64,000 nt of DNA from contig JANLFQ010000001.1 of NCBI GenBank assembly GCA_024653355.1, positions 1 to 64,000 on the forward strand. The letters are read 5' to 3'. Below, in pieces: positions 4,991 through 14,278 of the stretch. Every line of letters begins with the position of its first letter. The stretch's first letter is position 1. Source of the DNA: a candidate division WOR-3 bacterium (GTDB taxonomy: Bacteria; Hydrothermota; Tepidihabitantia; Tepidihabitantales; Tepidihabitantaceae). The notes beneath the pieces were generated by a model. The model was not told the origin of the DNA. It saw nothing but the letters and a program-made list of their open reading frames with translations, and did not search any database. Made by a program: the position numbers and the translations under genes.

Positions 4991-5018
4991 TTGACAACAG
5001 CGAAAAAAATATTATATT
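4991..5018 (+). promoter_or_regulatory. Sigma70-like promoter of the lysine-rich peptide gene
   Basis: TTGACA (4991-4996), 16 bp, TATATT (5013-5018), in an A/T-rich stretch right after the PorV-like stop codon. The expected start leaves a leader of about 25 nt that contains AAAAAGGAGG before the ATG at 5048. It is among the best promoter plus ribosome-site combinations in the window. Confidence 0.7.
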
Positions 5019-5047
5019 AAGTTGTTGGTTCTTAAAAAGGAGGTACG

Positions 5048-5134
5048 ATGGCATGCATGAAGCGCGGTGTTAAGAAAACCGCAAAGAAGACAGCGAAGAA
5101 GACCGTTAAGAAGACAGCGAAGAAAAAGAAGTAG
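5048..5134 (+). CDS. 28-residue lysine-rich (KKTA-repeat) peptide
   Basis: The frame reads MACMKRGV followed by KKTA, KKTA, KKTV, KKTA and KKKK. Thirteen of 28 residues are Lys, with one Cys and one Arg. Support for a real gene: near-consensus promoter at 4991-5018, AAAAAGGAGG five nt before the ATG, and a clean stop followed by a palindrome. Codons vary between repeat units (ACC/ACA, GCA/GCG), as expected if the peptide rather than the DNA is conserved. The composition resembles the tails of histone H1-like bacterial proteins (Chlamydia Hc1/Hc2, AlgP-like), so nucleic-acid binding is a guess. No family is recognised. It could instead be a leader peptide for mfd downstream. Confidence 0.6.
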   Translation: MACMKRGVKKTAKKTAKKTVKKTAKKKK

Positions 5135-5150
5135 CTGTCGGTAAAATAAA

Positions 5151-5172
5151 GAAGGGGGCATATGCCCCCTTC
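5151..5172. terminator. Perfect 22-bp palindrome over the first mfd start codon
   Basis: An 11-bp arm (GAAGGGGGCAT) is followed immediately by its exact reverse complement. The RNA would form a G/C-rich hairpin with a minimal loop. Only a weak T-rich stretch (GCATTTTA) follows, so it is an imperfect intrinsic terminator for the peptide gene. It also contains the only Shine-Dalgarno-like AAGG and the ATG of the longest mfd frame (5162), so it could hide that start. A palindromic protein-binding site is a third option. Confidence 0.5.
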
Positions 5173-8116
5173 GCATTTTATGGAGGAGATTCGGGAAAAA
5201 TTTGCTTCGGACCCAGATCTTGACAATTTAATCCGGAAGTTGCAACCCGGGATTCGGGTAGCAGTTGGCACGCCACCGCCCGCTGTTCAAGCGCTTTTAG
5301 CGGGGACAGTGGCGCACCGGTTGCAAAAACCCACCGTGCTTGTGTGTGCCGATGAGGCCGGAGCTCATACCGCCTTTCAGGATATCCGCACCCTTTATCC
5401 GGACACCGAGGTGGTACTTTTTAATATCAATTCATTGGCGGCAGTGGAAGGACTGAAAAGGATAGGGGCAAAGTCGGCGGTTGTGGTTGCGGTCGCGTCT
5501 GAACTGGTTGCGCCGGCACCGGAATGGGCAACCGAAAACGGTATTGTCAAACTGGAGCCGGGTTTTGGTATCGGGCTTAATTTCCTTGTGCAGTGGCTGG
5601 AAGATGCGGGTTACGAACGGGTTGACCTTGTGACCGAACCGGGCGAGTATGCGGTGCGGGGTGGAATCGTTGATGTGTACGGGGAAAATCGGGAGTTGCC
5701 GCTGCGGGTCGAATTTGCCGACGATGTCGTCGTTTCGCTGCGGGAGTTTGAACCCCTTTCGCAGCGTTCGCGGCAGACGCTGGAGCAGGCGGTGTTGTTT
5801 ACCCGGCAGCCGCCTGGTTTCGGAATGAGACCGGCGGCATCTTTGTTGCCAGCAGAGGCGGTGTTTATCGGTAGCGGGAACGAAATGCTCGGCAGCGGGA
5901 CGATTGAATTTGTTGAGAGCGGGGTGGGTGAGGATTTGGGATATCAGCCGGCACCAAACTATATGGGTAATTTGAAGTTGTTACAGGAGGAGGTTGACCA
6001 ATCCGATGATGAGTATTTCATCGTGGCGGTTTCCGAACATCACCGGCGCCGGCTGGAAAGTTTACTGGGTGATAAACCACGCTATCTGGTAGGCGGATTG
6101 AGTTGCGGGTTTGTCAATTCAAGGCGGGGTTGGGTTGTTTTGACCGAGCGGGAGATTTACGGCGCGCCGGTGGGCCGGCTGATACGACGCCGGTTTAAGG
6201 GCGTGCCGATTGACAATCTTCTGACACTGCGACCCGGTGATTATGTGGTTCATATCGATTACGGGGTCGGGATTTTTACCGGTACGAAACGGCTGGTGCA
6301 GAGCGGTGTGGAAAAGGACTATCTGGTAATTGAGTACGAGGGTAAGGACCGGGTGTATGTTCCGGTAGAGAACCTCGGGCTGATTGACCGTTATATCGGC
6401 GCCAATGACGAAGCACCCAAACTGGACCGGCTGGGCGGACGCTCCTGGCTTTTAGCCAAGGCAAAGGCGGCACGGGCGAGCGCCGCATATGCCGAGGAGT
6501 TGCTGGAGACTTATGCCCGGCGCGCAACCGCCCACACAACACCGCTCGTCGCTGATTCACCCTGGCTTGCCGAACTGGAGGCGTCGTTTCCCTATGAGGA
6601 GACACCGGACCAGTTGAAGGCGCTTGACGAGGTTCAGAAAGACCTTGCCCGTACGAAACCGATGGACCGGCTGGTGTGCGGTGATGTTGGTTTTGGTAAG
6701 ACCGAAATCGCCTTACGGGCGGCTTTTCAGACAGTGGTGAATTTCAAACAGGTGGCGCTTTTGGCACCAACCACGGTGCTCTGTTATCAGCATTACCATA
6801 CCTTCCGGCGGCGGCTGGAGCGTTTTCCGGTGCGGGTTGAGATGTTGTCAAGGTTTGTTTCACCGGCGCAGCAGGCGGCAATCCGGCGCGGGTTAAAAGA
6901 GGGTACGGTTGATATCGTCATCGGCACCCACCTTTTACTCAACCCCAAGGTTGATTTTCGCGACCTCGGGCTTTTGATTATCGATGAAGAACAACGTTTT
7001 GGTGTCCGGCAGAAAGAACGGTTACGCCGGATAAGGTCCGAGGTTAATGTCCTGGTGCTCTCGGCAACGCCGATTCCCCGTACCCTGTATATGGCGCTTG
7101 CCGGAATCCGGGACATTTCGGCGATTCATACACCGCCGCCGGGCCGCAAAGAGGTTTTAACCGAAGTGGCGGAATGGGACGATGGGCTGATTAGAAGTTA
7201 TGTTTACCGGGAGTTGAACCGGGGCGGGCAGGTGTTTTTTGTCCACAACGAGATTATGAGTTTGGGCACGGTGGAAAGACGGCTCCGGCAAATTTTGCCC
7301 GATGTTGAAATGGTCGTTGCCCATGGCCGACTCTCGAGCCGGCAACTGGCGGAGATTTACCTTGACTTTGCCAGCGGCAAGTATCAGATGCTACTTTCGA
7401 CCGCCATCATTGAGTCGGGGCTGGATTTGCCCAATGTCAATACCATTATCGTCAACCGGGCAGAGCGGTTTGGCTTGGCAGATTTGCACCAGTTGCGGGG
7501 TCGGGTGGGACGGGCTGATATGCAGGCTTATGCGCTGTTTCTTGTGTCGCGGCGCGAACTGGTGACGGCCGATGCCCGCAAGCGTCTCTCGGCGCTGTTA
7601 GCCTACTCGCGATTGGGTGCGGGGTACCGGCTGGCGCTGCGCGATATGGAGATTCGGGGTGTGGGCAACCTTTTAGGAACCGAGCAGCACGGTCATATCG
7701 CCCGGGTGGGTTTCAATCTTTACACCCGATTACTCAGGGAGGCGATTGCCAAACTGCGGGGCGAGCACGAACCGGTGGAGCCAAAATTGGACCTGAACCG
7801 CACGGTGTTCATTCCGTCCGAATACATTCCGGATGCATTCAGCCGCATCGCGATTTACAAAAGGTTGTTAGGGGTTGAAGATGAGACAGAACTCGATGAG
7901 TTGAAGGCGGAGTTGATCGACCGGTTTGGCAGGTATCCACCGGTGATTGAGGAGCTGTTTACCATCGCCCGCATCCGGCTCCTCTGCCGCAAGCGGGGGG
8001 TTCTTGAGGTAAAGTTGCGAGGCGAAAAGGCAACGGTCATCACCGCGGAAAAGACGGTTACAGTTGATGGCGGTGAACAGGGGTTACTTGAGTTCCTCAG
8101 TCAGCCCGCGGTCTAA
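5162..8116 (+). CDS. mfd: Transcription-repair coupling factor Mfd
   Basis: Mfd is a DNA translocase that removes stalled RNA polymerase and recruits UvrA to lesions. Seen: UvrB-like N-terminal region, CarD-like RNAP-interaction domain around residues 355-420 (RPGDYVVHIDYGVGIF), Walker A GDVGFGKTE near 507, DEEQ box near 608, SATPIPRTL, the RecG-like TRG motif region with HQLRGRVGR, and a C-terminal TRCF domain. Length is 984 residues, shorter than the ~1150 of E. coli, mostly at the N-terminus. The longest frame starts at ATG 5162 inside a palindrome; the ATG at 5180 (MEEIREKF) is the alternative. The 3' end overlaps convergent tsaE by 33 nt. Confidence 0.95.
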   Translation: MPPSHFMEEIREKFASDPDLDNLIRKLQPGIRVAVGTPPPAVQALLAGTVAHRLQKPTVLVCADEAGAHTAFQDIRTLYPDTEVVLFNINSLAAVEGLKRIGAKSAVVVAVASELVAPAPEWATENGIVKLEPGFGIGLNFLVQWLEDAGYERVDLVTEPGEYAVRGGIVDVYGENRELPLRVEFADDVVVSLREFEPLSQRSRQTLEQAVLFTRQPPGFGMRPAASLLPAEAVFIGSGNEMLGSGTIEFVESGVGEDLGYQPAPNYMGNLKLLQEEVDQSDDEYFIVAVSEHHRRRLESLLGDKPRYLVGGLSCGFVNSRRGWVVLTEREIYGAPVGRLIRRRFKGVPIDNLLTLRPGDYVVHIDYGVGIFTGTKRLVQSGVEKDYLVIEYEGKDRVYVPVENLGLIDRYIGANDEAPKLDRLGGRSWLLAKAKAARASAAYAEELLETYARRATAHTTPLVADSPWLAELEASFPYEETPDQLKALDEVQKDLARTKPMDRLVCGDVGFGKTEIALRAAFQTVVNFKQVALLAPTTVLCYQHYHTFRRRLERFPVRVEMLSRFVSPAQQAAIRRGLKEGTVDIVIGTHLLLNPKVDFRDLGLLIIDEEQRFGVRQKERLRRIRSEVNVLVLSATPIPRTLYMALAGIRDISAIHTPPPGRKEVLTEVAEWDDGLIRSYVYRELNRGGQVFFVHNEIMSLGTVERRLRQILPDVEMVVAHGRLSSRQLAEIYLDFASGKYQMLLSTAIIESGLDLPNVNTIIVNRAERFGLADLHQLRGRVGRADMQAYALFLVSRRELVTADARKRLSALLAYSRLGAGYRLALRDMEIRGVGNLLGTEQHGHIARVGFNLYTRLLREAIAKLRGEHEPVEPKLDLNRTVFIPSEYIPDAFSRIAIYKRLLGVEDETELDELKAELIDRFGRYPPVIEELFTIARIRLLCRKRGVLEVKLRGEKATVITAEKTVTVDGGEQGLLEFLSQPAV

Positions 8117-14110: not shown

Positions 14111-14278
14111 TCTCATCGGCGCTAAATTCCTTTTAAATCGACCAGCGTTTCTCTCATCGGGCATTGGCGGGCTGATGTTGATTTGCGATAGGCAGTTGGC
14201 GAAGTGAAAATGATGCCGGCTTTCAGTTCAGGTCGGCAAAAACAAACAAACGAAGTTGCTTTTGATGAGTCTGGTTTG

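Follow-up and report, generated by a model that had tools for sequence, protein, structure and literature searches.

A lysine-rich microgene conserved directly upstream of mfd in an order of WOR-3 bacteria

Organization of the locus

The window, meaning the whole 64-kb stretch of DNA that was analysed, forms the first part of a 1.15-Mb contig from a genome of 1.88 Mb, and it contains a promoter, a Shine-Dalgarno (SD) site, a very short open reading frame (ORF), a hairpin and the mfd gene in close succession on one strand (Table 1). Each element of the tiny gene reported in a preliminary description of the sequence, namely the near-consensus promoter, the SD site and the following palindrome, was found in place. 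The promoter ranks second best within the first 20 kb, and in 264 kb of the same genome, sampled in stretches as a background, only three promoters matching at least 10 of the 12 consensus positions are followed by GGAGG and ATG. The encoded peptide is half lysine and is built of KKTA-repeat units; the background sample holds just one other SD-preceded micro-ORF with at least 30% lysine, the basic gene behind an IHF-like gene. The hairpin has a predicted energy of -17.9 kcal/mol, and among 200 genes of at least 150 aa in the 264-kb sample just three have a comparable terminator within 80 nt. A known RNA family was rejected, as the element has no Rfam match at the gathering score. The start of mfd was placed at the ATG at 5180, which is supported by the orthologues, while the ATG at 5162 falls inside the hairpin loop.

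Table 1 Features of the microgene and mfd in the window
Feature	Position	Strand	Description
Sigma-70-type promoter, TTGACA-16-TATATT	4991..5018	+	11 of 12 consensus positions
Shine-Dalgarno site, AAAAAGGAGG	5034..5043	+	4 nt ahead of the start codon
Lysine-rich microprotein ORF, MACMKRGVKKTAKKTAKKTVKKTAKKKK	5048..5134	+	28 aa, 87 nt including the stop codon
Terminator-like hairpin, GAAGGGGGCATATGCCCCCTTC	5151..5172	+	Perfect 9-bp stem, 16 nt past the ORF stop codon
T-rich tail GCATTTT, from the hairpin to the mfd start	5173..5179	+	Too short for a promoter or SD site
mfd, transcription-repair coupling factor	5180..8116	+	978 aa, without SD site; Pfam UvrB_inter, CarD_TRCF_RID, DEAD, Helicase_C, TRCF

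Conservation of the cassette and its linkage to mfd

Relatives are labelled here by family (f), genus (g) and genome (G), and most of the genomes are metagenome assemblies. A protein search recovered the peptide in 11 of 61 relatives, and a search for an SD site followed by the peptide start M-[AP]-C-[MK]-K was positive in 17 of 147 genomes of the phylum, whereas the reversed control pattern was matched in a single genome. Of the pattern-positive genomes, all except one belong to the order of the window, and genomes missed by the pattern also hold the cassette, with different peptide starts. Among the orthologous peptides are MVAKKKPAKK... (54 aa) and MAVAKKKPAKK... (86 aa) in g6, MVRKKKAAKKK... 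and MAVKYGTKKK... in g7, MACAKKT.KKKTTKKKK in f3 and MPCAKKTTKTKKTTTKKSK in g13.

The strong expression signals claimed for the gene, a promoter of 11/12 and an SD site in the window, were confirmed and are kept across orthologues. All 21 tabulated orthologues have a promoter matching 10 to 11 of 12 positions at the equivalent place, an SD site GGAG(G) 3 to 5 nt ahead of the ATG, and a perfect hairpin of 6 to 12 pairs whose sequence differs between genomes. The peptides range from 17 to 86 aa (mostly 17-28) with 37-58% lysine, and the ORFs differ in length by whole codons. A cysteine at position 3 (Cys3) occurs in every tabulated peptide except those of the two g6 members, and both g7 peptides also lack it. 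A degenerate second cassette lies in G004:C49 (L109 / L030), about 1.2 kb upstream of the intact copy, with promoter and SD site retained and the ORF drifted to MPCMKRGVRKASEEGAGRTG...

Of the 24 genomes that could be scored, 23 (the 21 tabulated, G008 and G025) carry the microgene immediately before mfd and in the same orientation; these 23 represent 13 genera and the four families f1 (g1-g7), f3, f4 and f5. The joint presence of promoter, peptide and palindrome with mfd, proposed earlier as a check on the gene, was thus seen in all scorable genomes but one. Four genomes could not be scored, either since the 5' end of mfd is absent or truncated at the end of a contig (G012, G015, G026) or since mfd gave no match (G018). 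In the sole exception, G017, a single metagenome assembly, the promoter and SD site persist before mfd and the ORF, repeat and hairpin were lost together; loss of the frame from a surviving DNA repeat, which the preliminary description had named as evidence against the gene, was therefore not what was found. Other neighbours of the pair are partly common within f1, and no orthologous neighbour set common to different families was seen. Outside the order, 19 mfd loci from elsewhere in the class and phylum were compared, and a comparable lysine-rich ORF was seen at none of them; two of these loci have just a micro-ORF of a different kind, 13 residues long and preceded by an SD site, and two include little or no upstream sequence. 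Judged from the sequences compared, the cassette is conserved directly before mfd throughout the order.

Selection on the peptide

In nine close comparisons between orthologues, 27 of the codon changes are synonymous and 4 non-synonymous, and third positions account for 29 of 33 base differences; of random changes, about 22% are expected to be synonymous. A few genomes contribute to two of the nine comparisons, which makes the calculated P value too small, and the synonymous excess is large nonetheless. This excess indicates that the amino-acid sequence of the peptide is under purifying selection. Lysine is retained as the residue, and its codons track genome composition: they are AAA-rich in the AT-rich f3 and AAG-rich in the GC-rich g3. 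Selection on the peptide had been argued earlier from synonymous variation between the KKTA units of the window, which is real but only partial, since units 2 and 4 are identical in DNA (AAGAAGACAGCG); the comparison between species bears out the claim much more strongly than the comparison of units.

Expression of mfd and the possibility of attenuation

In g1, g5 and f3, only 6-8 nt separate the end of the hairpin from the start of mfd and no promoter can be placed between the stop codon of the peptide and mfd, so that mfd would be transcribed there only by read-through from the microgene promoter. In the other genera this gap is 22-220 nt; g2 and g6 have a -10-like element, scoring above nearly all shuffles, 6-8 nt before the mfd start, suggesting that mfd of these two genera may have its own near-leaderless transcript. 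A recognisable SD site is missing from mfd in 18 of 21 cases. Because mfd would depend on read-through of the hairpin or on a weak promoter of its own, and mostly lacks an SD site, it is fair to infer that the locus is designed to yield much peptide and little mfd product.

An ORF and a terminator between the promoter and mfd, strictly so in g1, g5 and f3, is also the layout of a leader attenuator, and control of mfd by a leader peptide was among the functions suggested earlier. In such a device, translation of the ORF would decide whether the hairpin stops RNA polymerase, as in coupling-dependent attenuation of the pyrBI type, and mfd would be made when ribosomes closely trail the polymerase; mfd would thereby sense slow or stalled polymerase. 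The likeness to pyrBI-type attenuators lies in a short ORF with strong translation signals that ends beside an intrinsic terminator and precedes a structural gene. The linkage to mfd in 23 of 24 scorable genomes and the 6-8 nt between stem and mfd in two families, with no intervening promoter, speak for this part of the earlier proposal. In E. coli, a following ribosome represses a terminator near the stop codon, and repression ends beyond 27 nt (PMC4824070). The distance from the ORF stop codon to the stem is 4-22 nt in all 21 orthologues, which is within this range and makes a coupling-dependent leader possible. However, stop codon and stem are equally close (9-15 nt) in the three other gene-terminator pairs of the window's genome, and the closeness of the hairpin was therefore rejected as a sign of attenuation.

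To look for an antiterminator, the energy of the duplex that each hairpin arm could form with the upstream transcript was compared with that of dinucleotide-shuffled sequences. For the 5' arm, no pairing was better than shuffled and no z-score fell below -0.5; for the 3' arm only, z-scores of -2.0 and -2.4 were obtained in two close g3 relatives. Unlike pyrBI-type leaders, the ORF is unconstrained in length (17-86 aa), no pause or antiterminator element was found and the gap to mfd is variable, reaching 220 nt in other genera, of which g2 and g6 have the -10-like element close to mfd. Against a leader device also stand the second peptide gene in g3, which is not at mfd, and the retention of mfd in G017 without ORF or hairpin. 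We regard such a device as a live alternative, though a less likely one, and consider it still less probable that the ORF and hairpin form a sensor of the spacing between RNA polymerase and ribosome that sets mfd expression. If that were so, one bicistronic unit would pair a polycation with an enzyme that clears stalled polymerases.

A candidate polycationic microprotein acting in trans

The reading that we prefer, with a probability of roughly 0.6, is that the microgene encodes a free-standing polycationic, H1-tail-like microprotein that would bind nucleic acid and act in trans, followed by mfd as a low-level read-through partner. From the consensus promoter and SD site, the peptide is expected to be abundant; it would be disordered and would bind nucleoid DNA and/or RNA through its charge, by analogy with H1-like lysine-rich tails. 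A disulfide between their Cys3 residues may link two copies of the peptide, or Cys3 may make a redox or metal contact. Most transcripts would end at the hairpin, after the peptide, leaving mfd at a low dose through read-through (g1, g5, f3) or partly through a weak promoter of its own, for which g2 and g6 offer the clearest candidates. Action in trans was rated likelier than a leader device because alternative pairing of the 5' arm is lacking, the ORF extends to 86 aa, gaps to mfd reach 22-220 nt and g3 has a second microgene. All six g3 genomes carry this second lysine-rich microgene, with SD site and hairpin, at a locus other than that of mfd, which suggests that the peptide is wanted apart from mfd. 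The idea that it compensates for the loss in G017 was rejected, as all six hold it. The five-fold variation in length with lysine content kept is as expected of a disordered polycation, unlike a folded protein. Also counted in favour of a free-standing peptide were SD-preceded lysine-rich micro-ORFs in other phyla and other contexts, the precedent of AlgP and the rarity of comparable terminators (3 of 200). Action in trans alone does not explain why the pairing with mfd survives in four families in which all other neighbours differ, and a dual role, as a trans-acting peptide and a leader, is possible alongside the preferred reading.

Comparison with known proteins supports a likeness of this kind at most in the mode of working. 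The preliminary description had seen in the peptide an isolated tail of a histone H1-like protein, which fits its composition, a lysine-rich low-complexity repeat of variable length; membership of such a family is not supported, because no model reaches its cut-off. No peptide reached the curated cut-offs of the Hc2/H1-like models PF07382, NF038053 and NF038052, and the window peptide gave no match to them at all. The long g6 forms gave sub-threshold matches (E-values of 1.7e-4 and 0.001), the 86-aa member scoring 19.6 bits against a cut-off of 40 for PF07382 and 21.9 against 80 for NF038053, and a resemblance based on composition is weak evidence of homology. Nothing in Pfam, NCBIfam or the PDB sequences scored above cut-off for the peptides. 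The closest functional precedents, by analogy, are Hc2, which varies from 165 to 237 aa by the number of lysine-rich repeats (PMC2848022), and AlgP, whose KPAA-repeat peptides bind DNA in vitro (PMC9239181). With chlamydial Hc2 (HctB) and the H1-like proteins of Burkholderia and Bordetella, the peptide shares repeats of Lys, Ala, Thr, Pro and Val, length set by repeat number and the lack of a folded domain, but it differs in its microprotein size, its conserved M-[AP]-C N-terminus and its fixed place before mfd. The KPAA tails of Pseudomonas AlgP and PhaF are likewise disordered lysine-rich repeats, but they belong to larger proteins whose N-terminal domain is helical, whereas the microprotein consists of nothing but the basic stretch. 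The window ORF is likewise not joined to a Bac_DNA_binding domain as in HU with a lysine-rich tail, and none of 15 HU/IHF proteins of the order that were read out carries such a tail; an origin from an HU tail was rejected on this ground, and a tail-like function in this order would be free-standing. An origin from phage was also rejected, as no similar DNA was found in phage records. In the same order, desulfoferrodoxin-N proteins of f3 (L074, L076), with a strong promoter and SD site, have a similar Lys/Ala/Thr/Val stretch, but as an N-terminal tail fused to a metal-binding domain and away from mfd.

No description of a lysine-rich gene upstream of mfd or in WOR-3 bacteria appears in the papers that a literature search returned. 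Annotation easily discards genes so small and of such simple composition, yet four families have kept this one along with promoter, ribosome site, hairpin and neighbouring gene. It suggests that H1-tail-like polycations may exist as stand-alone bacterial microproteins, and it offers a testable link between a polycationic peptide and Mfd, the remover of stalled RNA polymerase.

Other explanations for the microgene

The product could instead be a small basic protein associated with the ribosome, comparable to the tiny basic gene that follows the IHF-like gene (MPCGRKRKLRKVKRHKYKKRRKALRHKKKIR), to which it is similar in size, charge and, in many orthologues, an M-P-C start, and its strong expression signals would suit such a role. 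A structural ribosomal protein would not, however, differ in length between 17 and 86 aa in a single order; none of the neighbours seen was ribosomal and the Pfam, NCBIfam and PDB sequence searches gave no match, so that we consider this improbable. A conserved small RNA with an incidental ORF would account for the short transcript unit and for the strong promoter and hairpin in all members, but it is already disfavoured, and very improbable, given the 27:4 synonymous excess, the conserved SD site, the whole-codon length changes and the lack of an Rfam match. A functionless low-complexity repeat produced by DNA slippage, to which the repetitive KKTA units might point, is refuted by the conservation of frame, Cys3 and SD site across four families, the 17 of 147 genomes against one control match, and purifying selection.

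The pairing of an IHF-like gene with an immediately following conserved basic peptide of 29-31 aa (MPCGRKRKLRKVKRHKYKKRRKALRHKKKIR and relatives) recurs at L240 (minus-strand position 14166, near G000:C1:995836), L136:1348-1437 and L206-L212. Peptides of this type have no Pfam match and resemble the bacterial AURKAIP1/COX24 (mS38-like) small ribosomal protein.

Lysine-rich micro-ORFs in other lineages

A scan of GTDB 220 for an SD site followed by the M-[AP]-C-[MK]-K start returned 35 loci. Outside the order, free-standing lysine-rich micro-ORFs occur in a planctomycete (42 aa), a deltaproteobacterium (91 aa), two species of Goldiibacteriota (12 aa) and the Endomicrobiales (14 aa); none adjoins mfd in the flanking DNA examined, and they may be independent inventions. 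Both Goldiibacteriota ORFs (L045:3261-3299, minus strand; L056:1790-1828, plus strand) encode MACKKK[VA]KKKKK, with a strong SD site and a downstream palindrome and T-run, and lie directly upstream of ftsK, which encodes another DNA translocase. The deltaproteobacterial ORF (L031:7647-7922, minus strand) directly precedes genes for a pyruvoyl-dependent arginine decarboxylase and an arginase-family protein, perhaps agmatinase, a setting that is likely a polyamine operon. In the Endomicrobiales (L047:6726-6770), the ORF MACKKKAKKKKKKK has an SD site and is followed about 40 nt downstream by a tandem second lysine-rich micro-ORF starting MAKKKKAKKKKK. Two Erythrobacter genomes (L043, L053) have an SD-preceded basic ORF of 35 aa, MACKKVTR.VR...KPGPKTV.V.PHRRSKPKPCK, with cysteine near both ends. 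In Micrarchaeota/Diapherotrites (L037, L049, L063, L064), lysine runs of 11-14 aa, such as MACKKKKKKSDG, immediately follow the stop codon of an ORF upstream, and the DNA preceding them looks similar in several.
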